A stretch of DNA of 64,000 bases, from the NCBI RefSeq assembly GCF_001434895.1, contig NZ_AZEE01000027.1, forward strand, positions 245,360 through 309,359. Direction: 5' to 3'. The notes under the pieces are model-generated. The model was given only the letters and a program-made list of their open reading frames with translations, was not told the origin of the DNA and did no database searches. Position 1 is the first letter of the stretch, and the number at the start of each line of letters is the position of its first letter. The DNA comes from Secundilactobacillus odoratitofui DSM 19909 = JCM 15043 (GTDB lineage Bacteria; Bacillota; Bacilli; Lactobacillales; Lactobacillaceae). Below are positions 8,736 to 39,323 of this stretch, piece after piece. The position numbers were made by a program, and so were the translations under genes.

Positions 8736-8886
8736 CGCTGGTTCAGTTGCTGTGGGACCGGCTTCAGCCACGTAACCGTGTCTTTCGCCTCGCTTGTGAG
8801 CCTTCATAACCCGAAGTCTCACAAGCGTCCAGTACGAGTAAGCGCTAAAGCGCCAACTCGTACTTCTCACTGCAACTGAACCAGCG
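8736..8886 (-). ncRNA. Family-1 structured intergenic element, copy A
   Basis: The outer stem has a 15-bp perfect match (8736-8750 with 8872-8886). Read on the minus strand it carries the shared core: GCAGTGA, a hairpin, TGGACG, a second hairpin, then CGAGGCGAAAGACACG with a CACG/CGTG hairpin and CCGGTCCCACAGC. It pairs head-to-head with copy B. Function unknown; see the findings. Confidence 0.7.
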
Positions 8887-9015
8887 CGTTTCCTTCCGTT
8901 ATCGTTACCAATACGAGATTAGACACAGATCTAATATTGGTACGCATTGCGTTGATCGAATTTGAACTCAAAAAGACATGAAACTTCGTACTTCACCCAC
9001 AGTGTGAGCCGTAGT

Positions 9016-9190
9016 GCCAGAAGCCTGCTTTTTGGACGGGGTTGCAGTGACTAGTGCCACTTTGCGCGCATGCGCTTAGTGGCACTGGACGTTTCTGAGA
9101 CTCGTGGTCTGCGAGGCTCAGAAGCGAGACGGAAAACGCGAAGCGGTTGAAGTCGGTCCCACAGCAACTCCGTCCAAAAAGCAGACTGGC
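9016..9190 (+). ncRNA. Family-1 structured intergenic element, copy B
   Basis: Outer stem 9025-9045 with 9164-9184, closed further by GCCAG/CTGGC. The inner hairpins are AGTGCCACT/AGTGGCACT and TTCTGAG/CTCAGAA, followed by GCGAGACGGAAAACGCG and GGTCCCACAGC. The apparent reading frames crossing it are by-products of the structure. Confidence 0.7.
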
Positions 9191-9232
9191 GGCCGAAGGC
9201 GGCCTAAACCCATGGATTTTCACGAACACACC

Positions 9233-9274
9233 AAAAAGCACCTGTTCCTCAAATTCGAGGAACAGGTGCTTTTC
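9233..9274 (-). terminator. Terminator of the giant Ig-repeat adhesin gene
   Basis: A 17-bp perfect stem (9234-9250 with 9257-9273) around a six-base loop, flanked by A and T runs. It lies 29 bases after the stop at 9303 on the minus strand. Confidence 0.9.
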
Positions 9275-9302
9275 ATGAATCAATGAGAATCAAAGCTAAG
9301 AA

Positions 9303-12300
9303 CTAGTTACGCTTACGACGCTTAGTAGCACCCGCAAGGCCTAAGCCTGCAAGAATCATACCAAGCAATCCAAGGGCACCGGCTTCATTTTGATTTTCAT
9401 CAGTTTGTGGCAATTGCTTCTTAGCAGTTGTCGCATTGTTTTGGTCTTGACCAACGCCTTGTGATGATGTGTTGGCAACCGAAGCGTTGTTGCTGTTGCT
9501 ATCAGTTGAATCACCACTGTTATCACCAGTTGTCGAATCACTACCATTTGTAGCAAATGGTTCTTCTTTACCGTTACCAGAAGCATCAGTTGTTTGATCG
9601 CCTTCAGCTTCAACAGTTACAGTGGTTGTCGCACCATCGGCCGTGGTAATCGTCAATTGATCACCGGCTGAGATACCGTTACCACCTTGGTTAGCAGGAA
9701 TGGTAATTGAGAAGTTCCCATTGCCATCAGCCGTACCAGAAGCAACGTGATCACCCTTACTGTTCGTCACCGTCACAGTTGTGTTTGGTGTCGTGGTCCC
9801 AGTAACTGTGATACTACCATCGTCACCCTTCGTGGCCGTTGGGTTCGTAATTGTTGGCTCACCCGTCGTACCAGTTGTGGTGCCCGTGGTCGTATCAGTC
9901 GTCGTACCCGTTGTGGCAGTCGTACCACCAGGAACAGTAATCACAATTGAATCACCGTTCTTTGGCGTTACCGTCAATGGATCGCCTGGTTTAACAGTCT
10001 TGCCATCCACTGAAATGGTGAAGTTGCCCTTACCATCTGACGTGCCGGTTGCAACTGGGTTACCATTTGCATCCTTGATCGTCACAGTCGTGTTTGGCGT
10101 TGTCTTACCAGTTACCGTGTAACCGCCATTACCATTATCAGTAATCTCTGGGTTAGTAATCGTTGGCTTAGGTACGGTTACCGTGACCGCATCACCATTC
10201 TTTGGCGTTACCGTCAAAGTATCACCTGGCGTAACATCTGAGCCAGATACTGGAATGGTGAAATCGCCGTTAGCATTAGTCGTACCCTTAGCGATTGGGT
10301 TGCCCTTGGCGTCGGTAATTGTGATTGGCGTATTTGGTGTGGTCTTACCAGTTACGGTGTAGCCACCCTTACCATCATTGGTTACCGCTGGATCCGTGAT
10401 AGCTGGTGTGGTTTCAGGGACAGTCACCTTGGTTGGGTTACCGTTTTCTGGGGTAATTGTAACATCGCCACCAGGTTTAACAGTATTGCCATCCACTGGA
10501 ATCGTGAAGTCACCGTTACCATCTGAGGTACCAGTACCAATCGTCTTACCTTTATCATCAGTAATCGTGACTGGCGTGTTTGGCGTTGTCTTACCAGTAA
10601 CGTCATACCCACCATTATCAGTTGGCTTGACGGTTGGATCCGTCACACTTGGCTTCGTTGTGTCAGGCACAACGGCCGTGTTTGAGACGCCGTTATCTGG
10701 TGTAATCGTAATGGTTTGACCTGGTTTAACATCGCTACCCTTCACTGGAATCGTGAAGTCACCATTGCCATCGGAAGTCCCCTTGGCAATTGGGTTGCCG
10801 TTAGCATCCGTAATCGTCACTGGGGTATTTGGCGTCGTCTTACCAGTTACCGTGTAATCTGAACCGTCCGGAGTAACGGTTGGATCACTAACAGTTGCTG
10901 GTGTCGTCGTTGGCGTCGTAGTGGTATCTTCTGGCACTGTGACCTTGGTTGGGTTGCCATTATCTGGGGTGATTGTGACATCATCGCCAGGTTTAACAGT
11001 ATTGCCATCCACTGGAATCGTGAAGTTACCATTACCATCTGAAGTACCAGTACCAATCGTCTTACCCTTATCGTCAGTGACAGTCACTGGGGTATTTGGT
11101 GTGGTCGTACCAGTTACCGTGTAATCACCATTGTCAGTTGGAGTAACCACTGGATCAGTCACCGTTGGCTTCGTGTCATCAGGCACAACAGCGGTGTTTG
11201 AAATACCGTTGTCAGGTGTAATCACAAGCGTTTCACCTGGTGTTACCTTTGCGCCAGCAACCGGAATTGAGAAGTTCCCATTGACATCCGCGTTACCGCT
11301 AGCAATGACGTTACCGTCTTTGTCAGTAACTGTGACGTGGGTGTTTGGAGAAGTCGTCCCGGTGACGTTGTAGTTATTGCCATCCGTCACAATAATTGGG
11401 TTGGCAATCGTTGGGGTATCAGCTGCAGGTACGGTGACCGTGGTTGGGTTACCGTCCTTTGGCGTAACTGTGACATCATCACCTGGTTTGACAGAACCAC
11501 CATCAACCGGAATGGTGAAGTCGCCGTTACCATCTGAAGTACCAGTACCAATTGGGTTACCCTTCTCATCGGTAATGGTTACCGGTGTGTTAGGATCCGT
11601 CTTACCAGTTACCGTGTAGTCGCCACCGTTCGTTGGTGTGATGGTTGGATCAGTCACCGTTGGTTTAGTGGTGTCTGGCACCTTCGCAGTGCTTGGCGTC
11701 CCATTCTTAGGTGTGATCGTCACAACTTGACCAGGGGTTACGTTGCTGCCCAATGGAATGGTGAAGTCACCATTGCCATCTGCAATACCAGCAGCAATTT
11801 GGTTACCCTTATCGTCGGTAATCACAACTGGTACGCCTGGTGTGGTCTTACCAGTAACGTTGTAACCCCCGTTGCCGTTAGATACGACAGCTGGATCGGT
11901 AATCGTTGGTTTAGTAGTTGGCACTGAAACGGTTGTCGTGTTGCCAGCCTTAGGTGTGACGTTGATGTCGTCACCTGGGTTGACCGCATCGCCATCCACT
12001 GGAATGGTGAAGTGACCGTTACCATCTGAGGTACCAGTACCAATCGTCTTACCATTGTCGTCCGTCAGCGTAACTGGCGTATTTGGTGTCGTGTTACCAG
12101 AAACGTTGTAGCCACCGTCATCATTAGGTGTCACAACTGTATCCGTTGCCGTTGGCTTGCTACTATCAGGAACTGTAGTTGACTTCGAAACACCGTTGTC
12201 TGGCGTCAAGGTGACAGTATCGCCGCCCTTAACCGTTGTATCCAGTGGAATCGTGAAGTTACCGTTACCATCTGAAGTACCAGAACCAACAACTTTACCA

Positions 12301-15300
12301 TTGTCAGTCACTGTGACGTTCGTGTTTGGTGTCGTCTTACCAGTTGCCGTGTAACCACCCTTGCCATCTGGTACAACGGTTGGGTTAGTGATCGTTGGCG
12401 TTGCTGCAACAATTGCTGAAGGAATCGTTGCCTTTGTGGCATTACCATCCTTAGGCGTTACAGTAACTTCTTGACCTGGTTTAACAAGGCTACCATCAAC
12501 ACCGATGATAAAGTTACCATTCACATCGGAAGTACCGCTACCAAGGATGTTACCGTTCTTATCAGTAATCGTAACTGGTGTGTTGGCCGCTGTAGTTCCA
12601 GTAAACTTGTAGTCACCAGTTGCCGTTGGTACGACCGACAAGTTCTTGATGCTTGGTTTAGTGGCATCAGGTACCACTGCCGTATTTGAAATACCGTTGG
12701 CTGGTGTCAACGTAATGGTTTGACCCGGCGTAACCTTCGTGCCACTCACTGGAATCGTGAAGTCGCCGTTAGCATCCGCCGTACCCGTTGCAATCACATT
12801 ACCATCATCGTCGGTAATGGTTACCTTCGTGTTTGGCGTGGTCTTACCTGTGACGTTGTAATTGCTACCGTTTGGCGTCACGTTAGGACTTGTGATGGTT
12901 GGGGCATCCTTAGCTGGAACCGTCACCGTGGTTGGGTTGCCATCCTTTGGTGTTACCGTGAGGTCTTCACCAGGTTTAACCTTTGACCCGTCCACTGGAA
13001 TCGTGACGTTACCATTGCCATCTGAGGTACCGCTGGCAATTGGGTTACCCTTGTCATCTGTAATCGTGACTGGTGTGTTTGGATCCGTCTTACCAGTAAC
13101 CGTGTAACCACCATTGTCAGTTGGCGTAATCGTTGGATCAGTCAACGTTGGCTTAGTGGTATCTGGCACAACTGCTGTGTTAGACGTGCCGTTTTCTGGT
13201 GTGATCGTAATCGTATCGCCAGGTTTAACTGTGCCAGTAACTGGAATACTGAAATCTCCGTTACCGTCGGAAGTGCCTGTACCGATAGGATTACCTTGGT
13301 CATCCGTCAATGTAACTGGCGTGTTTGGCGTGGTCTTACCAGTTGCGACGTAGCCACCGTTACCATCTGAAGTAATCGTTGGGTTAGTAACCGTTGGCGT
13401 CGTCTCTGGCACGGTAACCGTGGTTGGGTTGCCGTCCTTTGGCGTAACCGTCAAGTCTTCACCTGGCTTTACATCGCCATCATCAACTGGAATCGTGAAG
13501 TTACCGTTGCCATCTGAGGTACCAGTGGCAATTGGATTACCCTTATCGTCAGTAATTGTAACCGGCGTGTTTGGATCCGTCTTACCAGTAACGTCGTAGC
13601 CACCATTGTTGTTTGGTGTCACATCAGTATCCGTAACACTTGGCTTCGTGACATCAGGCACAACAACCGTGTTTGAAATACCGTTGTCTGGTGTAACCGT
13701 CAACGTATCACCTGGTGTGACTTCGCTACCAGTGACTGGAATGGTGAAATCACCGTTACCATCTGAAGTCGTCTTGCCAAGAACCTTGCCATCATCGTTT
13801 GTCAAAGTGACAGGCGTATTTGGCGTGGTCTTGCCAGTTACTTTGTAATCATCGCCATCTGGTGTGATGGTTGGGTCACTAATGGTTGGCGTTGCCGTAG
13901 TTGGCGTGGTGGTATCAGTTGGTACCGTCACAGTCGTTGGGTTGCCATCTTTAGGCGTTACGGTCAGGTCTTCACCTGGTTTCACTTCATTACCATCAAC
14001 TGGGATCGTGAAGTTACCGTTACCGTCTGAAGTGCCCTTAGCGATTGGATTACCCTTTTCATCGGTAACCGTCACTGGCGTGTTTGGCTCAGTCTTACCG
14101 GTGACATCGTAACCACCTTTATCGTTAGGCGTCACAGTTGGATCCGTCACGCTAGGCTTCGTTGAGTCTGGCACAACCGCCGTGTTTGAAATGCCGCCGT
14201 CTGGTGTAATCGTGACCGTTGAGCCTGGTGTCAAATCCTTACCAGCATTAATCGTAAAGTCACCGTTACCATCTGAGGTACCAGATGCAACCAAATTACC
14301 GTTATCATCTGTAACTGAAACGACTGTGTTAGGGGTTGTCTTACCCGTAACCTTGTAGCCGTCAGTAGCGTTACCTATGACTGCAGGATCACTGATTGTT
14401 GGTGTTGCTGGCGTTGTGGTTGCCGTTGGTACGGTGACCGTAGATGGGTTACCGTCCTTTGGCGTTACCGTTAAGTCTTCACCTGGGGTAACGTCTGTCC
14501 CCTTCACTGGAATCGTGAAGTTACCATTGTCATCTGAAGTGCCAGTTGCGACTGGGTTGCCCTTCTCATCGGTAATCGTAACTGGGGTGTTAGGGTCAGT
14601 CTTACCAGTCACATTGTAGCCATCATCAGTTGGCGTAATCGTTGGATTCGTCACACTTGGCTTGGTTGAATCTGGCACAACTGCCGTGTTAGGTGTCCCA
14701 TCTTTTGGCGTAATCGTCACAGTTTGACCTGGTGTCAATTTGCTGCCATCCACCGGAATATCAAAGTTACCGTTGCCATCCGAAGTACCGTTGGCAATTG
14801 GGTTACCTTTATCATCCTTAACGGTCACTGGCGTATTTGGCGTCGTGGTACCAGTTACGTTATAGCCAGTAGTTGGGTCGCCAGTCACGGCTGGATTACT
14901 GATGGTTGACGGAATTGTTGGTACTGTAACCGTTGATGGGTTACCGTCCTTTGGTGTCACCGTCAAGTCTTCACCTGGTGTGACCTTCGTACCGTCCACA
15001 GGAATCGTGAAGTCGCCGTTGCCATCTGAAGTATCAGTTGCGATAGGGTTACCCTTTTCATCGGTAACCGTAACTGGGGTGTTTGGTGTCGTCTTACCAG
15101 TGACATCATAACCACCGTTGCCATCAGGGATAATGGTTGGATCAGTCACACTTGGCTTGGTTGCATTTGGTACAACCGCCGTGTTTGAAACCCCATTTTC
15201 TGGTGTAATGGTGACAGTTTCGCCTGGAATGACGTTATCGCCATCCACTGGAATGGTGAAGTCGCCATTCTTATCTGAGGTCCCTGTCCCAAGTACCTTA

Positions 15301-18300
15301 CCGTTAGGATCAGTGACCGTCACGTGAGTGTTTGGTGTGGTGGTACCAGTAACGTTATAGTTATCACCATTTGTAGCTACGTTCGGATTACTGATAGTTG
15401 GCGAAGTCTTGGCTGGAACAGTGACCGTTGATGGATTACCATCCTTTGGCGTAACGGTTAAGTCTTCACCTGGTTTAACTTCAGTGCCGTCCACTGGAAT
15501 CGTGAAGTTACCACTACCATCTGACGTACCCTTAGCAATTGGATCACCGTTCTCGTCAGTGATTGTCACTGGTGTGTTCGGTGTCGTCTTGCCAGTTACA
15601 GTGTAGTTACCGTCATCAGTTGGCGTGATCTTTGGATCCGTAATGGTGGCCTTGTTATCATCAGGCACAACTGCTGTATTGGACTTCCCATTTTCTGGTG
15701 TAATCTTAACAGTTTCACCTGGTGTCAAATCAGTGCCAGCAACCGGAATGTCAAAGTTACCGTTGCCGTCTGAAGTACCAGTAGCAATTGGATTACCCTG
15801 ATCATCAGTAATTGTCACTGGTGTGTTTGGTGTCGTCGTCCCAGTTACGTGATAGCCATCGGTTGAGTCACCAGTTACAGCTGGGTTGCTAATCGTTGGC
15901 GTTGTTTCTGGTACTGTCACAGTTGTTGGGTTACCGTCTTTTGGTGTTACAGTAAGGTCTTCACCTGGTTTGACAGTATTGCCGTCCACTGGAATCGTGA
16001 AGTCGCCGTTGCCATCTGACGTGCCAGTTGCGACCGGATTACCCTTATCATCAGTGACCGTCACTGGTGTGTTTGGATCCGTCTTGCCAGTTACGTCGTA
16101 GCCACCCTTATCATTTGGTGTGACCGTTGTATCAGTGACACTTGGTTTACTATCATCAGGCACTACAGCGGTGTTTGAAACGCCGTTGTCTGGTGTGATC
16201 GTAACCGTTTCGCCAGGTGTGACAGCTGAGCCGTCCACTGGAATCGAGAAGTCGCCGTTACCGTCAGACTTGCCAGTGCCAAGCACATCACCATTACCGT
16301 TCGTCACAGTCACTGGTGTGTTTGGTGTGGTCGTTCCAGTCACCTTATAGTTATCGCCGTCAGTTGCCACAGCAGGGTTACTGATGGTTGGCGCTGCAGT
16401 CGTTGGTGTCGTAGTTGTTGTGGTCGTCGGTACCGTAACCGTTGATGGGTTACCGTCCTTTGGTGTAACGGTTAAATCTTCACCAGGTGTTACATCGCTG
16501 CCATCCACTGGAATTGTGAAGTTACCTTTGCCATCCGACGTACCAGTGGCAATTGGATCACCGTTATCGTCAGTAACCGTTACTGGTGTATTCGGTTCTG
16601 TCTTACCAGTTACGGTGTAGTTACCATCATTAGTTGGTGTGATCTTTGGATCCGTAATGGTGGCCTTGGTATCATCAGGTACGACTGCCGTATTAGATTC
16701 ACCATTTGCTGGTGTAATCTTAACCGTCTCACCTGGTGTCAAATCAGTGCCAGCAACCGGAATATCAAAGTTACCGTTGCCATCTGAAGTAGTGTTGCCG
16801 ACTGGGTTGCCTTTATCATCAGTGACAGTCACTGGTGTGTTTGGTGTCGTCGTCCCAGTGACATGATAGCCATCGGTTGGGTTACCAGTTACAGCCGGGT
16901 TGCTAATCGTTGGCGTTACAACTGGAACAGTCACCGTTGATGGGTTACCGCCCTCAGGTGTAACAGTAACGCTCTCACCTGGTTTAACATCGGTGCCGTC
17001 AACTGGAATGTTAACGTTACCCTTACCATCTGAGGTGCCACTTGCAATTGGGTTACCCTTGTCGTCAGTAACAGTCACTGGCGTGTTTGGTGTCGTCGTC
17101 CCGGTTACAGTGTAGCCACCCTTACCGTCTGGTGTGATTGCCGGATCAGTGATGCTTGGCTTCGTTGCATCTGGTACGACTGCCGTGTTGGAGATCCCTT
17201 TTTCTGGTGTGATGGTGATGGTGTCGCCACCGGTAACCTTCGTGCCAGAAACTGGGATTGAGAAGTCACCCTTAGCATTTGAAGTACCAGCACCAATGAC
17301 GTAGCCCTTATCGTTCGTTAAAGTAACCACTGTGTTTGGTGTCGTCGTCCCAGTTACGGTGTAGTCTGTGCCATTTGGCGTTACTTTAGGATTACTAATG
17401 GTTGGCACCGTAGTAGCTGGCGTGGTGGTTGTCGTGTCAGTTGGCACGGTCACCGTCGTTGGGTTACCGCCCTTAGGTGTAACCGTCAGATCTTCGCCTG
17501 GTGTGACATCGCTACTATCAACTGGAATCGTAATGTTGCCATTGCCATCAGATGTACCAGTGGCAATTGGGTCGCCGTTCTTATCAGTAACGGTCACTTG
17601 CGTATTAGGTTTAGTTGTCCCAGTGATGATGTAGTCACCGTTGCCATCTGGCGTCATCTTGGCGTCAGTGACACTTGGCTTCGTTGCATCAGGCACAACG
17701 GCCGTATTTGAAATACCACCATCCGGTGTAATTGTGACAGTCTCACCTGGTGTCACCTTGGTGCCGTCTACTGGGATTGTGAAGTTACCATCACCGTCAG
17801 AAGTCTTAGTACCAAGGATGTTGCCTTCACCATCGGTTACCGTTACCGGTGTGTTTGGTTCCGTCTTGCCAGTTACGTTGTAATTATCACCATCAGGTAC
17901 AACGGTTGGGTTGCTGATCGTTGGTGTAACAGTCGTTGGCGTGGTAGTTGTGGTGTCAGTCGGTACGGTCACCGTAGTTGGGTTACCGTCCTTTGGTGTC
18001 ACCGTTAAGTCTTCACCTGGGGTAACGTCCGTACCCTTCACTGGAATCGTGAAGTCACCGTTGCCATCTGAAGTACCGGTTCCGACTGTGGTGCCTTTGT
18101 CATCCGTAATGGTAACTGGTGTATTAGGGTCAGTCTTACCAGTCACGTTATAGCCATCATCCGTTGGTGTAATGGTTGGATCCGTCACACTTGGCTTCGT
18201 TGCATCTGGCACAACGGCAGTGTTTGAAACCCCGTTTGCTGGGGTAATCGTGACAGTGTCGCCACCAGTTACTTTATTACCACTGATTGGAACTGTGAAG

Positions 18301-21300
18301 TCACCCTTACCATCAGAGTTGGCAGTGCCAAGAATATTACCGTTGTCATCAGTTACGGTGACTTTGGTATTTGGCGTGGTCGTACCAGTGACATCGTAGT
18401 TGGTACCATTCGGTGTCACTTTGGGATTACTAATGGTTGGTGCGGTCTTAGCAGGTACAGTTAACGTTGATGGATTCCCATCCTTTGGTGTCACCGTCAC
18501 GTCTTCACCAGGGGTGACAGTCGTGCCGTCCACTGGAATGGTAAAGTCACCGTTACCATCTGAGGTACCAGTCCCAATCGTCTTACCACCAGCATCAGTC
18601 ACCGTTACTGGGGTGTTTGGTGTGGTGTTACCAGTTACGGTGTAATCACCAGTGTCGGTTGGTGTAATCTTTGGATCAGTTACCGTTGCCTTAGTCGTAT
18701 CAGGCACAGCCACCGTACTTGGTGTTCCGTCTTTTGGCGTCATGGTAACTTTATCGCCAGGGTTGACCATGCCGGTAATTGGAATGCTGAAATCGCCATT
18801 CTCGTTTGAATTACCACTGCCAAGTGGGTTACCTTCAGCGTCGGTCAGTGTGACTGGCGTATTTGGCGTGGTCTTACCAGTTGCGATATAACCGTCCTTA
18901 CCATCTGAAACAATGGCTGGATTGCTAATGGTTGGCGTATTAGCTGGCACAGTTACGTCAGTTGGTTCGCCATCCTTTGGTGTTACTGTAATCGTGCCAC
19001 CAGGCGTAACGTCACTACCATCAACTGGCACCGTGAAGTTACCTTTACCATCTGAAGTACCGGAGCCAATGACATTACCACCATCATCGGTCACCGTTAC
19101 TGGTGTGTTTGGCGTGGTGTTACCAGTCACGTTGTACCCGTTATCGGTAGGGGTCACAACTGGATTAGTAACCGTTGGCGTGGTTGTTGTCGTTGTGTCT
19201 TTAGGCACGGTCACTGTGACAGGTGTCCCGTCTTTTGGTGTGACGTTGAGTGTTTCGCCTGGGGTGACATCAGTACCTTTGACTGGGATTGTGAAATCGC
19301 CGTTAGTATCTGCCGTAGCGGTACCAACCGTTTTGGTAGGATCGCTAGGATCAGTAACCGTCACCACAGTCCCTGGCGTGGTCTTACCAGTCACGTTATA
19401 GCCACCGTTACCATCTGGCGTAATCTCTTGATTCGTAATGGTTGGCGTTTCTGCTGGAACCGTCACAGTTGCTGGGTTGCCGCCTTCACCTGGTGTGATG
19501 GTTAAATTATCGCCTGGTTTGACCTCTGTGTTTGGTACTGTAACCGTGAAATCACCGTTAGGATCAGCGATATCGGTACCAACAGGATTACCTGCAGGAT
19601 CAGTAACCGTCACTTCAGTACCCGGCGTGGTCTTACCAGTCACATCATAGCCACCATTGTCATTTGGTGTAATCTTTGGATCAGTTACACTTGGCTTGGT
19701 TGCATCAGGAATAGTTGCTGTCGCTGGTGTCCCATCCGCTGGTGTGACAGTAATCTTTTCACCAGTCGTGACTGAGTCACCTTTTACTGGAATTGAGAAA
19801 GTACCGTCAGGGTTTGAAGTGGTTTTTCCAAGATCAGCACCGTTACTGTTTGTGATAGCAACTTCAGTATTTGGCGTCGTCTTACCAGTTACGGTGTAGT
19901 CTGAACCGTCTGGTGTGACAGTTAGGTCTGTAATGGATGGCGTTTCGGATTCTGTGACAGTACCAGTGACGTTTTTAAGGTCAGCGATGGTGTAGGTTGA
20001 ATCACCGTTACTTAATGCGTTTAAAGCATTAGTAACTTTTGTAATACCATCATCACTCAATTTGTATGAATAAGTCTTATTACCGTTCGCGTCCGTCCCA
20101 GTCTCAGTTACAACGAAATCATCACTCACAAAGGCAGGTAGGTTAAGCCCTTCTACGTCGGTGGTAACCACCTTATCTGCAGCAGCCAATGCAACGGCAG
20201 GATCTTGACCAGCAGCAACCGTGATTGGGTTAAGGGTCAAATGACCAGCAACCTCAGTACCTTGAGAAATCGTTGTGGTTTCAAAGCTCGTCTTAACGTC
20301 TGGCTTGATAGCAAGCAAGGCCTTATCAACGTCTTGTTGAGAGGCGTTTGGATCATCAAGTACCGTTTGGGCAGCTGCAGCAAGATCGGCATCAACGCCA
20401 CTTTCTGCAACGGCAGCCTTTAATTGGGTCTTATCAACGTTTTGATAAGCGATCGTTGTGTTGGAACGCGTTACTGTGTTATAGAGTTTCGTAGCAGTAT
20501 TAAAGGTTTCAGCTGTAAAGGCACCTGGTGTATTGGCCGACAGATCTGGATCTGTGAAGGTCAATGGCACAGCAACCGTTTGGCTGACACCAATCCCACC
20601 ATCGATAACGTGATCGATAACACCGGCAATGGTCCCATTCAAACCACTTGTGATGTTGCTAATGCCATCTGTAATGGCATCAGAGGCAGTTTTAAGTGCA
20701 GCAGATAGGGCGCTAGAGAACGTCGTTAATAATGAACTATTCGTTAAGGTGCTCGTAATTTTAGTGATGGCCGTATCGCCATTTTCATCAGGTTGGGCAC
20801 CAATAGCACTCACTAATGATTGGGCAATCCCGTTTGACCAGCCAATAACATATGAATTTACCATGTTAGAAATGGCTGATGAAACTGACTCATCACTCAT
20901 AGCAGTGACGACACCATCAGTTAAGGTGGCCGCTGCTAATGAGGTCTGTGAAACCCCGTTGGTCATCAAATTTGAGCCATAATCGTTAGCAGATGAAATG
21001 TTGTCCTTGGCAGTTGCAATACCATCTAAATAAGTCTGAATCGCAGCATCAAAGTTAGTTGTATCCGTCCCAAAAATTGGGGCACCAACATCAACCGCCT
21101 TTTGGGCAACACCAACTGCAACAGTCAACGCATCCAGCGCTGCCGAACCGCCACCAGACAGAAAGCTGCTGACAGCTTGAATGACAGTGGTCACAGGAGT
21201 TGTTAAGTACTGCATCCCTGATCCGTTGAAGTTTGAGTTAACAACCGCCATATCGTTGATTTCGTCATCAACGTTGTATTTTTTAACTAAATCTGGATCT

Positions 21301-22247
21301 GTAATTTGATACTCTTCACCAGTTGCTTCGTCTTGTAATGTGATCCCAACGCTTGATTTGTTGGTAACTTTAAAAGTACCAACCTTAACGTTGGTCAAGT
21401 TAGCTGGGATACCGACTGAAGCACCATGTTGGTTACTACCAGCAGCTGAAACTGAAATGGCGTTGTTGATACCATTAACGTAAATAACGGTCCCACGAGT
21501 TTGCGCATTTTTCGCGTCGGAACTCACAGCACCTTGATCATTAATCATATCATTGGCAGGGTTATTGGTCTCTTGACCATCAACGTACACTGGTTCATCC
21601 AGATTATCATTGGCAGTATCTGTTACACCAGTGTTACCATAATCGCCTGCTTGTCGGTTGGTATCAGCATTCGACTTATCAACAATTGAATTAGTTCCAT
21701 TAGTATTGGTTTGGCCAATACCAGCGGTTGCGCTGTTTTCAGCTGTCCCCGAATTACCACCAATCGAGCCCTTCAAAATGGCACCGTTAGTGTTGGGATC
21801 AGTTGTATTACCAGCATCCGTCGTCGTATTACCAGTAGTATCGTCACCCTCAATGGTTGGTTTCACACCGATGTTAGTTGTGGTTGTCGAAGTACTGGTG
21901 TTCTTAGTGACAGTCGCAGTGTTTGACGCAGCATCTGACGTTGTGTCAGTTGCTGTGTTAGTTGTTGTACTGCCAGTATCAGCCGTATCGGTTGGTGTGG
22001 CAGCTGGCGTTGCTGTTCCAGAATTGCCTGTTGTATCGGAAGCAGTAGTCGTTGTTGGCGTTTCAGTAGCAGCGTGTGCTGTCACTGTGGCCGTACCAGC
22101 GAACGCTAAACCAAGTGAAAAAGTGGTCAACCCAGCAATCAGCCAAGTACGACCTGCCTTATACATCTTGTAGTGTGTTTTACCCGTTTCCCGAAGAGCA
22201 GCCAATTTTTGGTTATTCTTCGCCAAATTTTTGGATCCTTTTAACAT
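9303..22247 (-). CDS. Giant LPXTG cell-wall adhesin with about 41 Ig-like repeats
   Basis: A 4314-residue surface protein. The N terminus carries a KxYKxGKxW-type signal (HYKMYKAGRTW) and a hydrophobic core ending VTAHA. A Ser/Thr/Asn-rich stretch follows, then a unique region to about residue 770 with a FIVAR-like helical segment. About 41 tandem Ig-like (Big-type) domains of about 84 residues run from about 770 to 4210, each with a VTGKTTPNTPVTVTD-like strand and a G-D/N-F-T/S-I-P-V turn. The C terminus has LPQTD (about residue 4279), a hydrophobic span and KRRKRN, the sortase A signal. The ATG at 22247 is used because seven G lie seven bases upstream. Its promoter is at 22435-22463. Adhesion or aggregation is inferred from architecture. 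Confidence 0.93.
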   Translation of the reverse strand: MLKGSKNLAKNNQKLAALRETGKTHYKMYKAGRTWLIAGLTTFSLGLAFAGTATVTAHAATETPTTTTASDTTGNSGTATPAATPTDTADTGSTTTNTATDTTSDAASNTATVTKNTSTSTTTTNIGVKPTIEGDDTTGNTTTDAGNTTDPNTNGAILKGSIGGNSGTAENSATAGIGQTNTNGTNSIVDKSNADTNRQAGDYGNTGVTDTANDNLDEPVYVDGQETNNPANDMINDQGAVSSDAKNAQTRGTVIYVNGINNAISVSAAGSNQHGASVGIPANLTNVKVGTFKVTNKSSVGITLQDEATGEEYQITDPDLVKKYNVDDEINDMAVVNSNFNGSGMQYLTTPVTTVIQAVSSFLSGGGSAALDALTVAVGVAQKAVDVGAPIFGTDTTNFDAAIQTYLDGIATAKDNISSANDYGSNLMTNGVSQTSLAAATLTDGVVTAMSDESVSSAISNMVNSYVIGWSNGIAQSLVSAIGAQPDENGDTAITKITSTLTNSSLLTTFSSALSAALKTASDAITDGISNITSGLNGTIAGVIDHVIDGGIGVSQTVAVPLTFTDPDLSANTPGAFTAETFNTATKLYNTVTRSNTTIAYQNVDKTQLKAAVAESGVDADLAAAAQTVLDDPNASQQDVDKALLAIKPDVKTSFETTTISQGTEVAGHLTLNPITVAAGQDPAVALAAADKVVTTDVEGLNLPAFVSDDFVVTETGTDANGNKTYSYKLSDDGITKVTNALNALSNGDSTYTIADLKNVTGTVTESETPSITDLTVTPDGSDYTVTGKTTPNTEVAITNSNGADLGKTTSNPDGTFSIPVKGDSVTTGEKITVTPADGTPATATIPDATKPSVTDPKITPNDNGGYDVTGKTTPGTEVTVTDPAGNPVGTDIADPNGDFTVTVPNTEVKPGDNLTITPGEGGNPATVTVPAETPTITNQEITPDGNGGYNVTGKTTPGTVVTVTDPSDPTKTVGTATADTNGDFTIPVKGTDVTPGETLNVTPKDGTPVTVTVPKDTTTTTTPTVTNPVVTPTDNGYNVTGNTTPNTPVTVTDDGGNVIGSGTSDGKGNFTVPVDGSDVTPGGTITVTPKDGEPTDVTVPANTPTISNPAIVSDGKDGYIATGKTTPNTPVTLTDAEGNPLGSGNSNENGDFSIPITGMVNPGDKVTMTPKDGTPSTVAVPDTTKATVTDPKITPTDTGDYTVTGNTTPNTPVTVTDAGGKTIGTGTSDGNGDFTIPVDGTTVTPGEDVTVTPKDGNPSTLTVPAKTAPTISNPKVTPNGTNYDVTGTTTPNTKVTVTDDNGNILGTANSDGKGDFTVPISGNKVTGGDTVTITPANGVSNTAVVPDATKPSVTDPTITPTDDGYNVTGKTDPNTPVTITDDKGTTVGTGTSDGNGDFTIPVKGTDVTPGEDLTVTPKDGNPTTVTVPTDTTTTTPTTVTPTISNPTVVPDGDNYNVTGKTEPNTPVTVTDGEGNILGTKTSDGDGNFTIPVDGTKVTPGETVTITPDGGISNTAVVPDATKPSVTDAKMTPDGNGDYIITGTTKPNTQVTVTDKNGDPIATGTSDGNGNITIPVDSSDVTPGEDLTVTPKGGNPTTVTVPTDTTTTTPATTVPTISNPKVTPNGTDYTVTGTTTPNTVVTLTNDKGYVIGAGTSNAKGDFSIPVSGTKVTGGDTITITPEKGISNTAVVPDATKPSITDPAITPDGKGGYTVTGTTTPNTPVTVTDDKGNPIASGTSDGKGNVNIPVDGTDVKPGESVTVTPEGGNPSTVTVPVVTPTISNPAVTGNPTDGYHVTGTTTPNTPVTVTDDKGNPVGNTTSDGNGNFDIPVAGTDLTPGETVKITPANGESNTAVVPDDTKATITDPKITPTNDGNYTVTGKTEPNTPVTVTDDNGDPIATGTSDGKGNFTIPVDGSDVTPGEDLTVTPKDGNPSTVTVPTTTTTTTPTTAAPTISNPAVATDGDNYKVTGTTTPNTPVTVTNGNGDVLGTGKSDGNGDFSIPVDGSAVTPGETVTITPDNGVSNTAVVPDDSKPSVTDTTVTPNDKGGYDVTGKTDPNTPVTVTDDKGNPVATGTSDGNGDFTIPVDGNTVKPGEDLTVTPKDGNPTTVTVPETTPTISNPAVTGDSTDGYHVTGTTTPNTPVTITDDQGNPIATGTSDGNGNFDIPVAGTDLTPGETVKITPENGKSNTAVVPDDNKATITDPKITPTDDGNYTVTGKTTPNTPVTITDENGDPIAKGTSDGSGNFTIPVDGTEVKPGEDLTVTPKDGNPSTVTVPAKTSPTISNPNVATNGDNYNVTGTTTPNTHVTVTDPNGKVLGTGTSDKNGDFTIPVDGDNVIPGETVTITPENGVSNTAVVPNATKPSVTDPTIIPDGNGGYDVTGKTTPNTPVTVTDEKGNPIATDTSDGNGDFTIPVDGTKVTPGEDLTVTPKDGNPSTVTVPTIPSTISNPAVTGDPTTGYNVTGTTTPNTPVTVKDDKGNPIANGTSDGNGNFDIPVDGSKLTPGQTVTITPKDGTPNTAVVPDSTKPSVTNPTITPTDDGYNVTGKTDPNTPVTITDEKGNPVATGTSDDNGNFTIPVKGTDVTPGEDLTVTPKDGNPSTVTVPTATTTPATPTISDPAVIGNATDGYKVTGKTTPNTVVSVTDDNGNLVASGTSDGNGDFTINAGKDLTPGSTVTITPDGGISNTAVVPDSTKPSVTDPTVTPNDKGGYDVTGKTEPNTPVTVTDEKGNPIAKGTSDGNGNFTIPVDGNEVKPGEDLTVTPKDGNPTTVTVPTDTTTPTTATPTISDPTITPDGDDYKVTGKTTPNTPVTLTNDDGKVLGKTTSDGNGDFTIPVTGSEVTPGDTLTVTPDNGISNTVVVPDVTKPSVTDTDVTPNNNGGYDVTGKTDPNTPVTITDDKGNPIATGTSDGNGNFTIPVDDGDVKPGEDLTVTPKDGNPTTVTVPETTPTVTNPTITSDGNGGYVATGKTTPNTPVTLTDDQGNPIGTGTSDGNGDFSIPVTGTVKPGDTITITPENGTSNTAVVPDTTKPTLTDPTITPTDNGGYTVTGKTDPNTPVTITDDKGNPIASGTSDGNGNVTIPVDGSKVKPGEDLTVTPKDGNPTTVTVPAKDAPTITSPNVTPNGSNYNVTGKTTPNTKVTITDDDGNVIATGTADANGDFTIPVSGTKVTPGQTITLTPANGISNTAVVPDATKPSIKNLSVVPTATGDYKFTGTTAANTPVTITDKNGNILGSGTSDVNGNFIIGVDGSLVKPGQEVTVTPKDGNATKATIPSAIVAATPTITNPTVVPDGKGGYTATGKTTPNTNVTVTDNGKVVGSGTSDGNGNFTIPLDTTVKGGDTVTLTPDNGVSKSTTVPDSSKPTATDTVVTPNDDGGYNVSGNTTPNTPVTLTDDNGKTIGTGTSDGNGHFTIPVDGDAVNPGDDINVTPKAGNTTTVSVPTTKPTITDPAVVSNGNGGYNVTGKTTPGVPVVITDDKGNQIAAGIADGNGDFTIPLGSNVTPGQVVTITPKNGTPSTAKVPDTTKPTVTDPTITPTNGGDYTVTGKTDPNTPVTITDEKGNPIGTGTSDGNGDFTIPVDGGSVKPGDDVTVTPKDGNPTTVTVPAADTPTIANPIIVTDGNNYNVTGTTSPNTHVTVTDKDGNVIASGNADVNGNFSIPVAGAKVTPGETLVITPDNGISNTAVVPDDTKPTVTDPVVTPTDNGDYTVTGTTTPNTPVTVTDDKGKTIGTGTSDGNGNFTIPVDGNTVKPGDDVTITPDNGNPTKVTVPEDTTTTPTTTPATVSDPTVTPDGSDYTVTGKTTPNTPVTITDANGNPIAKGTSDGNGDFTIPVKGSDVKPGQTITITPDNGVSNTAVVPDTTKPSVTDPTVKPTDNGGYDVTGKTTPNTPVTITDDKGKTIGTGTSDGNGDFTIPVDGNTVKPGGDVTITPENGNPTKVTVPETTPAITDPAVTNDGKGGYTVTGKTTPNTPITITDAKGNPIAKGTTNANGDFTIPVSGSDVTPGDTLTVTPKNGDAVTVTVPKPTITNPEITDNGNGGYTVTGKTTPNTTVTIKDANGNPVATGTSDGKGNFTISVDGKTVKPGDPLTVTPKNGDSIVITVPGGTTATTGTTTDTTTGTTTGTTGEPTITNPTATKGDDGSITVTGTTTPNTTVTVTNSKGDHVASGTADGNGNFSITIPANQGGNGISAGDQLTITTADGATTTVTVEAEGDQTTDASGNGKEEPFATNGSDSTTGDNSGDSTDSNSNNASVANTSSQGVGQDQNNATTAKKQLPQTDENQNEAGALGLLGMILAGLGLAGATKRRKRN
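9610..19940 (-). repeat. Tandem Ig-domain coding repeats, about 41 units
   Basis: By counting the recurring VTGxTxPN-type strand I find about 41 units of roughly 250 bp. Two unit types alternate: one ends near SNTAVVPD and a KPSVTDP-type start, the other ends near PTTVTVP and a TPTISNP-type start, giving a two-domain period of about 500 bp. Linkers after the second type vary in length, with T-rich expansions such as TTTTTPTT. Codons differ between units more than residues do. Confidence 0.9.
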
Positions 22248-22289
22248 TAAAAATCCCCCCCGAAGTAAAATCCATTCTTCCAAAACGTG

Positions 22290-25559: not shown

Positions 25560-25780
25560 ACCAATTCCTCCCAGCTCAGTTTATTACGTTTCATTATACC
25601 ATGATGCCGATGGTCACGCAGAACTCCAACGTTAAATTTAGGTAAAGGACTGTGAATCGGCTTGATTGCTCGTCACTGTCACTGCCACTACAGGGAACGC
25701 GGTTTTTATTGTAAAGCTCATTCTTTTGTTAGTAGTTCATTTTCAACCGCAAGAATTTCCCCCTGGATATAAGCCGTAGT

Positions 25781-25947
25781 GCCAGAAGCCAGTTTTGTCG
25801 GGTAGCAGTGACTAGTACCACTTTACGCGTCAGCGTTTAGTGGTACTGGACGTTTCTGAAACTCGTGGTTTTTGGGGCTCAGAAGCGAGACGGAAAACGC
25901 GAAGCGGTTGAAGTCGGTCCCACAGCTACTTGACAAAACTGGCTGGC
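25781..25947 (+). ncRNA. Family-1 structured intergenic element, copy C
   Basis: Outer stem 25788-25806 with 25925-25943, closed by GCCAG/CTGGC. The inner hairpins are AGTACCACT/AGTGGTACT and TTCTGA/CTCAGAA, followed by GCGAGACGGAAAACGCG and GTCGGTCCCACAGC. This is the only copy not in a head-to-head pair. The remaining bases from 25560 to 25780 show nothing clear. Confidence 0.7.
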
Positions 25948-25984
25948 GGCCAAAGGCGAACCTACCCCGGGAATTTTCGCCAAA

Positions 25985-30045: not shown

Positions 30046-30058
30046 CATAAATTCCGTA

Positions 30059-30748: not shown

Positions 30749-30952
30749 GTTATAAGTTCTCCTTATGTGCCGTCATATTAAATCATGCGTTAATTTACGC
30801 TAAATTACATGTGAAACTGCCATACCATTCAGGTAAAGCCTCAGGAGCAGTGCCCACCAATAAAGTATCGGGCCCGCTTAGGTCTATCTTAACAAAACTT
30901 AGCCAATCATTCATTATTAATCGTTTAACTTAAGGTTCTTGTTAGGAATTCA

Positions 30953-31073
30953 GAGTGAGTCTGATGGCAGTTAGTTCCCAGAGGATAGTCGAATAACCCA
31001 TGTGACCTGTTTTTGGGTCATATGGGTTATTCGACTATCTGGCCGGGAGCTGCCATCATACTCACGTTTCAGC
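30953..31073 (+). ncRNA. Family-2 structured intergenic element, copy 1
   Basis: Outer stem 30955-30970 with 31050-31065 (one mismatch), then TTCCCAGAG, a long near-perfect hairpin (about 18 bp plus an inner stem containing a G-U pair), GGCCGGGA and CACGTTTCAGC. The orientation is set by the shared sequence words and G-U pairs. The rest of 30749-31190 shows no gene. Confidence 0.65.
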
Positions 31074-31191
31074 AACGCAGCCAAAAAAGTGCATCTATCA
31101 AAAACAAACGAAAGAGAAAAATCCCCAAAATCAGAAATTCACACTTTCGTTCGCTTCACTTCTGAGACCTAACCGAGTTTTGCTCCACTCT

Positions 31192-31241: not shown

Positions 31242-31260
31242 CATTATTCAATTCACTTCA

Positions 31261-32511
<1,251 letters not shown>

Positions 32512-32681: not shown

Positions 32682-32696
32682 AATTTAAGTTAACTT

Positions 32697-33449: not shown

Positions 33450-33469
33450 TTGGTAATCCTCCCTGGTTA

Positions 33470-33592
33470 GAGTGTGAAAAATAGCGGTTAATTCCCAGAG
33501 TATAAGTCGCTAACCCGGACGACCCTGAAACTGGGTCGTGTGGGTTAGTGACTTATACGGCCGGGAATTGCTATTTTTCACACGTTTCAGCT
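33470..33592 (+). ncRNA. Family-2 structured intergenic element, copy 2
   Basis: The perfect 14-bp outer stem GTGTGAAAAATAGC (33472-33485) / GCTATTTTTCACAC (33570-33583) encloses TTCCCAGAGTATAAG, a long inner hairpin with G-U pairs, CTTATACGGCCGGGAA and the 3' word CACGTTTCAGC. It converges on a reverse copy at 33641-33742. Confidence 0.7.
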
Positions 33593-33640
33593 ACATTAAA
33601 ATCAAACCGCACTGACACATGTTACATAGACTAAACGTGC

Positions 33641-33742: not shown

Positions 33743-33747
33743 TCACT

Positions 33748-34848: not shown

Positions 34849-34871
34849 AGTACAGTCTCACTCTTCCTTTT

Positions 34872-35063
34872 TTAGTCAGTTTGTTGCTTTTTTTCAAGCA
34901 CCTTTTTTAGTTTCTTTTCGAATTCACGTCGGCTGAGCATCACAATGTGACCGCAACCGGTACACTTGATTTTAATGTCGGCGCCCATTCGAATAATTTC
35001 CCAGCGGTTAACACCGCATGGGTGTGCCTTCTTCATTTCAACTAAGTCACCTAAATCGTACAT
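34872..35063 (-). CDS. DUF951-family small protein (YyzM-like)
   Basis: 63 residues beginning MYDLGDLVEMKK. HPCGVNRWEIIRMGADIKIKCTGCGH carries the conserved HPCG and CxxC pair of the DUF951 family, which suggests a small metal- or nucleic-acid-binding fold. The charged C-terminal helix ends KVLEKKQQTD. The ATG at 35063 is selected because AAGGAG lies seven bases upstream; the in-frame start at 35090 lacks a site. It lies between parB and ychF, the usual location in Firmicutes. Confidence 0.92.
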   Translation of the reverse strand: MYDLGDLVEMKKAHPCGVNRWEIIRMGADIKIKCTGCGHIVMLSRREFEKKLKKVLEKKQQTD

Positions 35064-35092
35064 CGTATCACTCCTTACTTGCCACCGCACGT

Positions 35093-36731: not shown

Positions 36732-36747
36732 CGGTTTTCTCACTCCT

Positions 36748-37572
36748 TTATGATTTTTTCATAATATCAATGATAATACGGTAACGGTCCGGATCGTCTT
36801 CTTCGGTCGTTTTGACATCTAAACCAGCGTTATTTACCATCTTCAGTGATTCTTTTATGGTATTAACCGCAATCCGGGTATCTGAAGACACTGAGCGAAT
36901 CGTCGGCTTTGGCTTAGCCTTGGCTCGGCTACGCTGAATCAACCGCTCAGCATCTCTAACCGTTAAGTGATCGGAAATGATCCGCTTCAACAGTTTTTCT
37001 TGTTGCAATGGTGTTACCGCCAATAGTGCTCGGCCGTGACGTTCGCTGATCTCGTGATTTAAAATTGCCGTTTGAACTGGATCACTCAACTTCAACAAGC
37101 GTAACTTGTTCGCAATAAACGACTGACTTTTACCAACGTTTTTAGCCAATTGGCTTTGCGTCAGTTGGTTCAGTTTCATAAGCGCTTGATAGGCCTGCGC
37201 TTCTTCGATAGGCGATAATTCTTCACGTTGCAAGTTTTCAATCAGCGCTAATGACGCCGTTTCATCATCAGACATCGTCTGAATAATGGCCGCAACTTCC
37301 CGCCATTTTAACGACTTAACCGCCCGGAAGCGTCGTTCGCCAGCAATAATCTCATAATGATGTGGCTCATACTCTCGCACAACGATTGGTTGCAGTAGCC
37401 CATGTTCTGAAATGGTCTGAGCCAACTCAACGATTCCTCGCTCATCAAAAACCTGTCGAGGCTGAAACCGGTTCGGCACAATGGCATCAACAGGTACCAT
37501 GACCACGTTTTGTTTCACTGTTTCGCTCTCAGTTTTATTGGCCTTATCCCGACCAAACAACGAAAACGCCAT
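36748..37572 (-). CDS. noc: Nucleoid occlusion protein Noc
   Basis: A ParB paralogue of 274 residues that binds chromosomal NBS sites and the membrane to prevent division over the nucleoid. N-terminal MAFSLFG is a short amphipathic membrane-targeting sequence. GERRFRAVKSLKW is the CTP-binding box, ENLQREELSPIEEAQAY the linker helix, and LTQSQLAKNVGKSQSFIANK the HTH. AAAGGGG before the ATG at 37572 supports the start. Its position between rsmG and parA matches Bacillus. Confidence 0.94.
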   Translation of the reverse strand: MAFSLFGRDKANKTESETVKQNVVMVPVDAIVPNRFQPRQVFDERGIVELAQTISEHGLLQPIVVREYEPHHYEIIAGERRFRAVKSLKWREVAAIIQTMSDDETASLALIENLQREELSPIEEAQAYQALMKLNQLTQSQLAKNVGKSQSFIANKLRLLKLSDPVQTAILNHEISERHGRALLAVTPLQQEKLLKRIISDHLTVRDAERLIQRSRAKAKPKPTIRSVSSDTRIAVNTIKESLKMVNNAGLDVKTTEEDDPDRYRIIIDIMKKS

Positions 37573-37587
37573 CACGACATCCCCTTT

Positions 37588-38319
37588 CTACCCATTACCA
37601 AGTGGTTCTTTATTAGGTGTACCGGCCTTGCGCGGATAGCGTTTTGGCGTTGGTTTCACCTTATCCACCACCACGATATGGCGTTCATCCCCTGACTCAG
37701 GTAATTCAAACGCCTGATCTAGCGCCAGCTTACCGCCCAATAGTGCGATTGCTTGGTTAGACTGTGTTAGTTCATTTTCGGTCTGTTGAGCCTTCAGTGC
37801 AATAAACTGCCCATGCAATTTGACCAATGGCAAGCAAAGTTCGCTTAACACACTCATCCGCGCCACGGCTCGTGCAGTTACGACATCGTAGGCTTCTCGA
37901 TGTTCTGAGCGTTTACCGCCAAATTCTTCAGCTCTGGCATGGTATACCGCAACATCCGTCAGTCCCAGTTCATCAATTAAAGCCTTTAAAAAATTGATTC
38001 GTTTATTCAGCGAATCCACAATAGTGACCTTCAATTGCGGAAATAAAATCTTCAACGGCAGTGATGGAAATCCGGCACCAGCGCCCACGTCACAAAGCGT
38101 CAACGCTTCCGTCCGGAGTTCAGGCACGTAGAACGCCGGCGTAACCGAATCATAAAAGTGCTTCAGATAAACGTCTGGGCGATCTGTGATCGTGGTCAAG
38201 TTCAAGTGCTGGTTAGTTTCAACCAAGCGCTCAAAATATTGATTAAACTGTTCAAGCTGCGTTTGTGACAGGGTGATGCCCTGTTTCGCTAACGCAGCGG
38301 TAAATTGACTATCGTTCAT
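37588..38319 (-). CDS. rsmG: 16S rRNA m7G527 methyltransferase RsmG
   Basis: An AdoMet-dependent methyltransferase of 243 residues that modifies G527 of 16S rRNA; loss gives low-level streptomycin resistance. Motif I is [16 protein letters not shown], followed by [15 protein letters not shown], and [19 protein letters not shown] is the RsmG family signature. The ATG at 38319 has AGGAGA eight bases upstream; a longer open frame back to 38487 is not homologous-looking. It starts the rsmG-noc-parA-parB transcript. Confidence 0.96.
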
Positions 38320-38341
38320 GCCGATTCTCCTACTCCAATTC

Positions 38342-38362
38342 TGTGAAACAATGTGTTTCACA
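38342..38362. promoter_or_regulatory. Everted parS-like half-sites before rsmG
   Basis: TGTGAAACA and TGTTTCACA form a 9-bp inverted repeat around ATG, 23 bases before the rsmG start. The half-sites equal those of parS (TGTTTCACGTGAAACA) but point the other way, so this is not a canonical site. Confidence 0.45.
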
Positions 38363-38678
38363 TCCTGTTCTACTGTACCGTAATTAAAGGCAGGAAGCAA
38401 GACCCCGTAAGCCTTAATAATGAATCGTGAACCTTTACGATTGTCCACTTGCAAGCACTTACGGCCACTGTAACAATTACCCACCAATTTTCTGTTTTGT
38501 TCAACTCTAAAATTATACTAAATTTCCAGGTTGGACACTACTGGCTGACGTTAAAAAGTTATTTGACTTGCTTCAGTCACTCTAATTCCGATCGGTGATT
38601 TGTTTGTTGCTGTGAGAATTTTGTTGTGTACATTGTCAGTTGCGAATCTTACACACCCTATCCTGCCACTTTCACTCC

Positions 38679-38846
38679 GATCAGCGGGCTTTTTCGGTTG
38701 CTGTGGGACCGATTTCAGCCACTTGCGTGTCTTTCACCTCGATTATAAGCCTCACAAAAATCGTGAGGCTTATAAGCGTCCAGTCCTTGTAACCGCCAAA
38801 GGCGCTAACAAGGGCTTGTCACTGCAACCGAAAAAGCCCGCTGATC
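38679..38846 (-). ncRNA. Family-1 structured intergenic element, copy D
   Basis: A perfect 23-bp outer stem (38679-38701 with 38824-38846). On the minus strand: GCAGTGAC, hairpin around CCTTGT/ACAAGG, TGGACG, hairpin TTATAAGCCTCAC/GTGAGGCTTATAA, GAGGTGAAAGACAC, CACGCAAGTG hairpin, CGGTCCCACAGC. Apparent frames across it are not genes. Confidence 0.72.
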
Positions 38847-38950
38847 TCCGTTGTCGTTACGTTGAATCACCATGGATATGACAACGAAACACAATTGATT
38901 ATTGCTATATCGCGCCGTTCAACTAAACTATAGTGCTAACATCATCCGAG

Positions 38951-39085
38951 ACAGTGCCTATAAAACAATAGGTGCAAAACAAATTTAGCACATTTGGCGT
39001 CATTACAAGTTTAACAATCATTGCACCTAATACTACTGCAACCATACAATTCCTCGCTATGCACCTATTTTACAATAGGCACTGT
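38951..39085. mobile_element. MITE-like element with terminal inverted repeats
   Basis: 135 bp with imperfect 26-bp terminal inverted repeats: ACAGTGCCTATA... at 38951 and ...ATAGGCACTGT ending 39085, with TGCACCTATT/AATAGGTGCA inside the arms. No open frame. It lies between family-1 copies D and E. No target duplication is obvious. Confidence 0.45.
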
Positions 39086-39135
39086 ACCAATGATTAAACT
39101 CATCTGCGTCACCGCAAACCCAGCCGGAGTGTCGT

Positions 39136-39323
39136 CAGTTCTTTCGGGTGCTGGTGGCAGTGAAAAATGTTGTTAGGTTAAAGTGAGGCACGGCACCATC
39201 GTGGCTTGCTTTAGCCTTACAACATTGGACGTCACTGAGACCTGCACTTTGGGCTCAGTGGCGAGGCGGAAAACGCGCAGCGGTTGAAGCTGGTCCCACA
39301 GCCACCAGGACCCGAAAGAACTG
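39136..39323 (+). ncRNA. Family-1 structured intergenic element, copy E
   Basis: A 23-bp outer stem with one mismatch (39136-39158 with 39301-39323). Inside: GGCAGTGAA, a hairpin, TTGGACG, TCACTGAG/CTCAGTGG hairpin, GCGAGGCGGAAAACGCG, CAGCG and GGTCCCACAGCC. Head-to-head with copy D across the MITE-like element. Confidence 0.7.

Follow-up and report, generated by a model that had tools for sequence, protein, structure and literature searches.

The 64,000 nucleotides (nt) of Secundilactobacillus odoratitofui DSM 19909 = JCM 15043 analysed here (contig NZ_AZEE01000027.1, positions 245,360 to 309,359; hereafter the window) carry five copies of a structured repeat. The explanation considered best, which is given an even chance of being right in all its parts, is that these copies belong to a dispersed non-coding element of the Lactobacillaceae, whose unit is a head-to-head pair of arms that act as RNA and are copied in trans. 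The family is apparently large and undescribed, and no description of it in Lactobacillaceae was met in the literature searched, which left out most subscription papers.

An earlier note on this DNA, made from the sequence alone, had listed the copies, A to E, as single members of one "Family-1". All five were confirmed at the noted places by covariance-model matches and do form one related set; the elements are, however, somewhat larger than noted, according to the edge profiles of the two arm types (T1 and T2), and they actually pair up as arms of a single kind of unit (A with B, D with E), a strict head-to-head arrangement that had gone unnoticed. Arm A (T1, minus strand, 8713-8908, with T1-profile edges placed by eye; folded core 8732-8891, 164.7 bits) is separated from arm B (T2, plus strand, 9008-9203, with T2 edges; folded core 9026-9182, 162.2 bits) by a spacer (8909-9007) that resembles none of the other spacers compared. 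Similarly, arm D (T1, minus strand, 38664-38860; folded core 38683-38843, 147.7 bits) and arm E (T2 with an enlarged hairpin I, plus strand, 39123-39339; folded core 39139-39319, 111.7 bits) flank a spacer (38861-39122) that contains a second inverted repeat, CAGTGCCTAT..AATAGGTGCA. Arm C (T2, plus strand, 25773-25959; folded core 25787-25943, 159.2 bits) is accompanied on the minus strand by a probable remnant of its T1 partner, corresponding to the outer 3′ end of a T1 arm (25676-25702; motif match, extended by eye), in which 16 nt agree with the T1 outer-end motif at all but 2 positions, a match equalled in none of 100 shuffles. The word GGTCCCACAGC is found without mismatch five times in the window, one in each copy, and 76 times genome-wide against 2 occurrences of a reversed control word; with up to 2 mismatches allowed, its 14 occurrences in the window are at chance level.

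Two covariance models were used for the searches, R1 and R2, the latter built family-wide and including several of the genera later searched. In the source genome R1 produced 127 matches, or 113 once 14 antisense shadows had been taken out by hand, and R2 added 24 copies, giving a union of 137 non-overlapping copies, partial ones among them. The covariance-model search that the earlier note had proposed thus found the family throughout its own genome, and it was positive in other Lactobacillaceae genomes as well. With R1 only, 33 neighbouring pairs were recognised, and all of them were minus-then-plus, that is, head-to-head, with gaps of 94-355 nt; 32 consisted of T1+T2 and one of T2/T2 under a typing that was pattern-based and ambiguous for some arms, 12 of which were assigned to T1 or T2 by hand from their edges and 7 to a third arm type, T2b. 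With both models, the 46 pairs lying within 600 nt were head-to-head without exception, and 45 copies were unpaired. Moreover, the distances among T1 cores correlated with those among T2 cores (Mantel r 0.653, reached in 0 of 2000 permutations; 31 of the 33 pairs, outer stems trimmed), so the two arms have diverged together and must have travelled together, which makes the pair the unit. The same layout was verified in other genera, where 26 of 28 neighbouring pairs were head-to-head in a tally covering 57 of the 119 scanned stretches, the exceptions being the same-strand pairs at loci L191 and L201. In genome G224, a second, weaker-scoring arm was present in 18 of the 20 fetched loci of the strong type, and all 18 were head-to-head.

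The idea that single copies are simple deletions of T1/T2 pairs was considered and rejected, as the partner's outer end was kept in only 2 of the 46 singles examined. A more diverged arm was instead seen in 10 of the 19 partner sides shown, and R2 lifted the number of pairs from 33 to 46. At two partner sides of the source genome (L119 and L120, at C4:89219 and C4:414820), AGTCGGAAGT and CTCA are joined where other copies hold a full diverged arm, as though a deletion between short repeats had removed an arm.

On its own sense strand, each arm folds into a closing stem (P1), hairpin I, a short GGAC/GTCC helix and hairpins II and III, an architecture of two nested three-way junctions. P1 is hypervariable in sequence with its pairing kept, and it leads into a conserved GCAGTG/CACAGC-type step before hairpin I. 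The GGAC/GTCC helix was invariant in 47 aligned copies of the source genome, and hairpins II and III have in common a GAGAC..GGCTC-type word with an A-G mismatch, as read off the alignment. The arms measure about 165-200 nt, and the profiles revealed sharp edges at the fold ends: the edges of T1 are GTAAC..GTAGTGGCA, the arm beginning GTAACGAGAACGGA and finishing GGAGTGGTAGTGGCA, and T2 begins near GCCGTAG, preceded by 11 weakly conserved nt, and finishes GCCGAAGGCGGC. RNAalifold, applied to a MAFFT alignment of the 47 copies, returned 59 pairs, with both sides changing in 43. Pairing holds in 97.2% of the cells of this alignment and drops to 34-40% when the 3′ partners are slid by 1-3 columns, a control that favours the structure because the structure was derived from those same sequences; the covariation score was 0.610 against 0.172 in shuffled alignments, and none of 500 shuffles scored as high. 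A family-wide alignment of 70 copies showed both-side changes in 44 of 46 pairs, 89.4% of cells paired against 31-44% when slid, and a covariation score of 0.726 against 0.202 after shuffling. The outer stem, two hairpins and third hairpin described earlier are therefore real and covarying in the 47-copy alignment, and significant covariation was not lacking once more copies were included.

The sense of the mismatches indicates which strand is selected. A G-T mismatch on one strand is an A-C mismatch on the opposite strand, and if both strands mattered equally the two should therefore be equally common. On the copies' own sense strand, G-U outnumbered A-C by 93 to 21 (56:14 in T1 and 37:7 in T2), and the family-wide ratio was 178:43; the copies counted are related and hence non-independent, and the per-column count, with 30 pair columns rich in G-U and 9 rich in A-C, is still skewed. 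Most T1 arms are on the leading and most T2 arms on the lagging strand, and a mechanism acting only on the lagging-strand template would hence predict opposite signs in the two; the excess was of the same sign in both. Such an excess is predicted neither by a strand-neutral DNA palindrome nor by perfect-palindrome repair. The simplest reading leans towards RNA as the selected form, given the surplus of G-U over A-C on the arms' own strands, and single-stranded DNA recognised on that strand is also compatible. The earlier proposal of selection on "RNA or single-stranded DNA" is in this way borne out for a folded single strand, by the covariation in 47 own and 70 family-wide copies and by the G-U excess, and the choice that it left open now leans to RNA.

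The units have a marked preference in their genomic placement. With genes called as long open reading frames (ORFs), 78 of the 80 R1-typed units could be assigned a context (the other 2 had too little flank): 43 lay between co-directional genes, 30 between convergent and 4 between divergent genes, and 1 was undetermined. The ratio of 30 to 4 (p 6e-6) is a real bias, because convergent and divergent junctions alternate along the DNA and should be equal, and it was thus shown that units prefer the 3′ ends of genes. At co-directional sites T1 pointed with the genes in 33 cases and against them in 10. T1 also matched the leading strand, as inferred from the GC skew of the examined stretches, in 65 of 73 units, a figure that omits 7 T2b arms, 6 of which would disagree by the T2 rule. 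In the other genomes this asymmetry was weaker or not significant: among the typed strong arms of G224, 16 of 20 agreed (p 0.019, assuming an origin near the contig start), a weak result, and the untyped copies of G224 and G255, near-complete genomes of another genus, had no significant strand split in lists made of the best-scored part of their matches (35 of 52 and 61 of 98, with 400 and 706 of 1000 shuffles, respectively, as good).

These observations suggest how the element may work. It is taken to be chromosome-resident; a rapidly changing spacer is flanked by two arms of different type (here T1 and T2), each of which would act as RNA. The arms face outward, and a transcript arriving from either side would meet the near arm in antisense and end with the far arm folded in its sense. 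The unit would therefore serve transcript ends as an RNA module that works in both directions, for instance by binding a protein or by protecting or trimming 3′ ends. The whole unit would be copied by an enzyme supplied in trans, which may have been lost from the genome since or may belong to a class that was not searched. A more ambitious version holds that the element is a mobile one of the entire Lactobacillaceae, its two divergent structured RNAs having a common origin with the streptococcal small RNA (sRNA) SSRC8, its spread depending on the RNA fold and not on the terminal DNA sequence, and its head-to-head layout making it a direction-independent RNA device at gene ends; in its entirety this is tentative and stands well below the first reading in probability. 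If true, the element would be a structured-RNA-based dispersed element of bacteria, moved by something other than an HUH transposase or a reverse transcriptase.

Several points weigh against an RNA element of this kind or against its kinship with SSRC8. The two-way role at transcript ends was inferred from geometry alone, and the edge profiles of T1 and T2 contain nothing like a conserved promoter in the 80 nt before the arm. The leading-strand bias of T1 also fits a replication-linked mechanism acting on single-stranded DNA. As to kinship, the Lactobacillaceae copies match the Rfam family RF02616 (SSRC8_2, Streptococcus sRNA 8) only marginally, with 14.5 bits for arm B of the window (9079-9182) and 20.4 bits for locus L060 (E 0.12 each), and the scan that gave L060 found no match to RF02616 in the other 19 of its 20 loci. 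Furthermore, RF02616 was equated by name with the SSRC8 of S. pyogenes, for which Northern signals and ends determined by circular RACE (rapid amplification of cDNA ends) are given in the portion of PMC3675131 consulted.

The link to SSRC8 emerged from the distribution of the family. A pattern scan identified, among the matches listed, carriers in Levilactobacillus, Companilactobacillus, Lactiplantibacillus, Furfurilactobacillus and Secundilactobacillus, and R1 matched copies in all five genera and in none of six pattern matches outside Lactobacillaceae. A sample of relatives searched with R1 had suggested a family restricted to one genus, which was corrected by R2: in a survey with strict filters and about 11 candidates scored per genome, the family was found in 61 of 251 Lactobacillaceae genomes and 11 of 40 genera, and 136 matches were counted in one near-complete genome and at least 150 in another. 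Among 299 genomes drawn from the whole class, two matched besides the source genome, both of one other genus, probably Streptococcus judging from its proteins, and R2 homologues were then counted in 23 of 118 genomes of that genus, with one or two copies each and 27 matches in total. Thirteen of these 27 loci were read, and all were in operon sense, 12 between purD and purE and one right before the start codon of a protein read as DnaK. When folded, the 13 copies displayed the same architecture, some with one or two broken pairs. A tandem pair occurred in one of the 13, and same-strand tandem copies, not head-to-head, were observed in this genus at L278 1501-1801, G590:C1:1499119-1499467 and G652:C4:89907-90254.

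All seven scanned loci of this other genus matched RF02616 with 35-52 bits, the best E being 3.6e-12; these scores fall short of the family's gathering score of 72, and no Rfam gathering score was reached in the window or by the repeat family. The match to a described element that the earlier note had allowed for is accordingly a distant one, sub-threshold and obtained mainly through these homologues. The Lactobacillaceae repeats and the RF02616 relatives have a core fold in common, namely the helix closed by GGG/CCC-like pairing and hairpins II and III with their AGACC/GAGAC and GGCTY words. The two differ in that RF02616 is described as an sRNA and its 13 homologous loci lie in operons, alone or in tandem, whereas the Lactobacillaceae form reaches more than 100 copies in some genomes, is arranged in head-to-head pairs and, in arm B, scores 14.5 bits against the 72-bit gathering score.

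Comparison of orthologous sites provided evidence of mobility. At the D/E site, among 11 relatives read, the intergenic region was short in G003 (137 nt) and G011 (165 nt); in seven relatives an arm of this superfamily was present in diverged form (R2, 30-36 bits), located, by eye, across the likely promoter from the window unit, and G010 and G002 had long intergenic DNA with no R2 match. The C site was short in G013 and G004, and in G010 it was occupied by a head-to-head pair of that genome's own subfamily (R2, 115 and 24.8 bits for the two arms); in G001, G003, G008 and G009 it measured 1.6-1.9 kb with no R1 or R2 match. Neither model matched any of the four short sites. This presence and absence at two orthologous sites implies that units came or went since the genus diversified. 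No target duplication was recognised by eye at these sites, where the relatives are too diverged for exact insertion points. The searches of plasmid and phage sequences yielded only one partial match of 73 bp and no clear plasmid copy, and the L. brevis query used in them does match other L. brevis copies at 85-91%.

Among the alternatives, the best survivor, although rather unlikely, is a giant REPIN-like transposon of single-stranded DNA, an inverted doublet moved by an HUH (Y1) transposase with insertion into the lagging-strand template near hairpins. By layout, REPINs (hairpin-forming doublets of repetitive extragenic palindromes, REPs) are the nearest analogue. Together with REPs and bacterial interspersed mosaic elements (BIMEs), as treated in sections of PMC3116915, PMC3733652 and PMC8049555, they share with the present unit the dispersed inverted doublets, variable spacers, extragenic sites and compensatory changes, as well as singlets, which in the relevant part of PMC3116915 are thought to be remnants of inverted REP doublets. 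The leading-strand location of T1 in 65 of 73 units is in line with such a transposon, and so is the lack of a clear plasmid copy, since RAYT (REP-associated tyrosine transposase) genes were likewise not seen on plasmids according to passages of PMC8049555, where REPINs are also described as persisting in E. coli genomes that have no RAYT gene. The Y1 transposase domain Y1_Tnp (PF01797) was detected in 7 of 15 genomes of the genus and in 5 of 14 control genomes. However, it had no match at E 0.001 in the source genome, despite the 137 copies there. Moreover, arms of about 165-200 nt with nested three-way junctions are unlike tagged palindromes of 20-40 nt, and the strand asymmetry was weak in the typed strong arms (16 of 20) and not significant in the untyped copies of the two other-genus genomes. 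As a population of units it works like a REPIN, and it is not classed as one.

Less probable still is a signal at the DNA level, such as a cruciform or a site for gyrase or a nucleoid protein, placed at gene ends like some BIMEs and having no RNA role. It would account for the placement at gene 3′ ends and convergent junctions, the replication strand bias and the lack of clear plasmid copies, but a double-stranded or cruciform signal should be symmetric, and yet G-U is accepted much more readily than A-C on the sense strand of either arm; the SSRC8-like relatives, in operon sense at all 13 loci read, also argue against it.

Retroposition of a structured RNA, in the manner of short interspersed elements (SINEs), by a reverse transcriptase supplied in trans, for instance the enzyme of a group II intron, is quite improbable. 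In its favour, selection acts on the arms as sense strands, copies are found close to gene ends and all over the genome, and the targeting of group II introns is compatible with a leading-strand bias. Nevertheless, the reverse transcriptase domain RVT_1 (PF00078) was found in only 3 of the 15 genus genomes, the source genome being among the 12 with no match, and one RNA cannot template a head-to-head pair with both arms in sense. That template switching keeps the hairpins palindromic, leaving the covariation unselected, is scarcely credible. In its favour, the distal part of P1 varies strongly in sequence and still pairs for the most part (95.6% of cells in helix 1), which quasi-palindrome correction would produce. 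The excess of G-U over A-C, the non-palindromic conserved words, the conserved loop and junction bases seen and an architecture that stays the same from genus to genus and even in another family of the order all speak against it.

Other known repeats offer partial likenesses to the proposed RNA-based unit. The EFAR repeats of Enterococcus faecalis are about 170 bp long, foldable and inserted at stem-loops, a likeness by description. EFAR is listed among miniature inverted-repeat transposable elements (MITEs) in a portion of PMC3733652. MITEs derived from DDE insertion sequences are also short, non-coding, non-autonomous and present in many copies, and they differ from the present unit, whose ends are not identical inverted repeats, whose T1 and T2 arms are distinct in flanks and edges, and whose outer-stem sequence varies between copies with the pairing kept.

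A RAYT/Y1 transposase or a reverse transcriptase was rejected as the present mover, neither domain having been found in the source genome, in a search that did not extend to other transposase classes. Neither enzyme seems to be needed at present, and the one responsible may since have been lost. No autonomous version was recognised either: the 5-kb stretch between C8:128953(-) and C8:134146(+) contains long ORFs in which no transposase was recognised by eye, no family-library scan having been made. The question raised is what copies a structure-recognised unit where no Y1 transposase or reverse transcriptase domain is found. Lactobacilli are major food and gut bacteria, and yet some of their genomes carry a family of more than 100 copies that falls below every Rfam gathering score. 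This family ties a known, unexplained streptococcal sRNA to a large set of dispersed structures, and its many natural compensatory mutants are material for dissecting a fold.

Further repeats and structures were observed along these sequences. The D/E spacer includes, at 38952-39084, a separate inverted repeat (CAGTGCCTAT..AATAGGTGCA / TGCACCTATT..AATAGGCACTG), and similar words are found in other unit spacers genome-wide. Another repeat family has three copies in the window (30952-31087, 33469-33605 and 56524-56660), marked by AGAGTG..CCCAGAG and TATACGGCCGGG..CACGTTTCAGC; it is not matched by R2 and is possibly a further structured family. A 93-nt tandem repeat, 89% identical, at 56676-56863 contains AGCCGTAACGCG and also a hairpin word that by eye is like part of the relatives' elements at the orthologous D/E site. 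Elsewhere in the source genome, a T-box leader (L012 827-1086, minus strand; 116.6 bits, above gathering) is located within a few hundred bases of a unit. Finally, an ORF of 4326 amino acids (9303-22283 of the window), whose product is probably a cell-surface protein, covers at least 33 imperfect DNA repeats with a spacing of about 246-249 nt.

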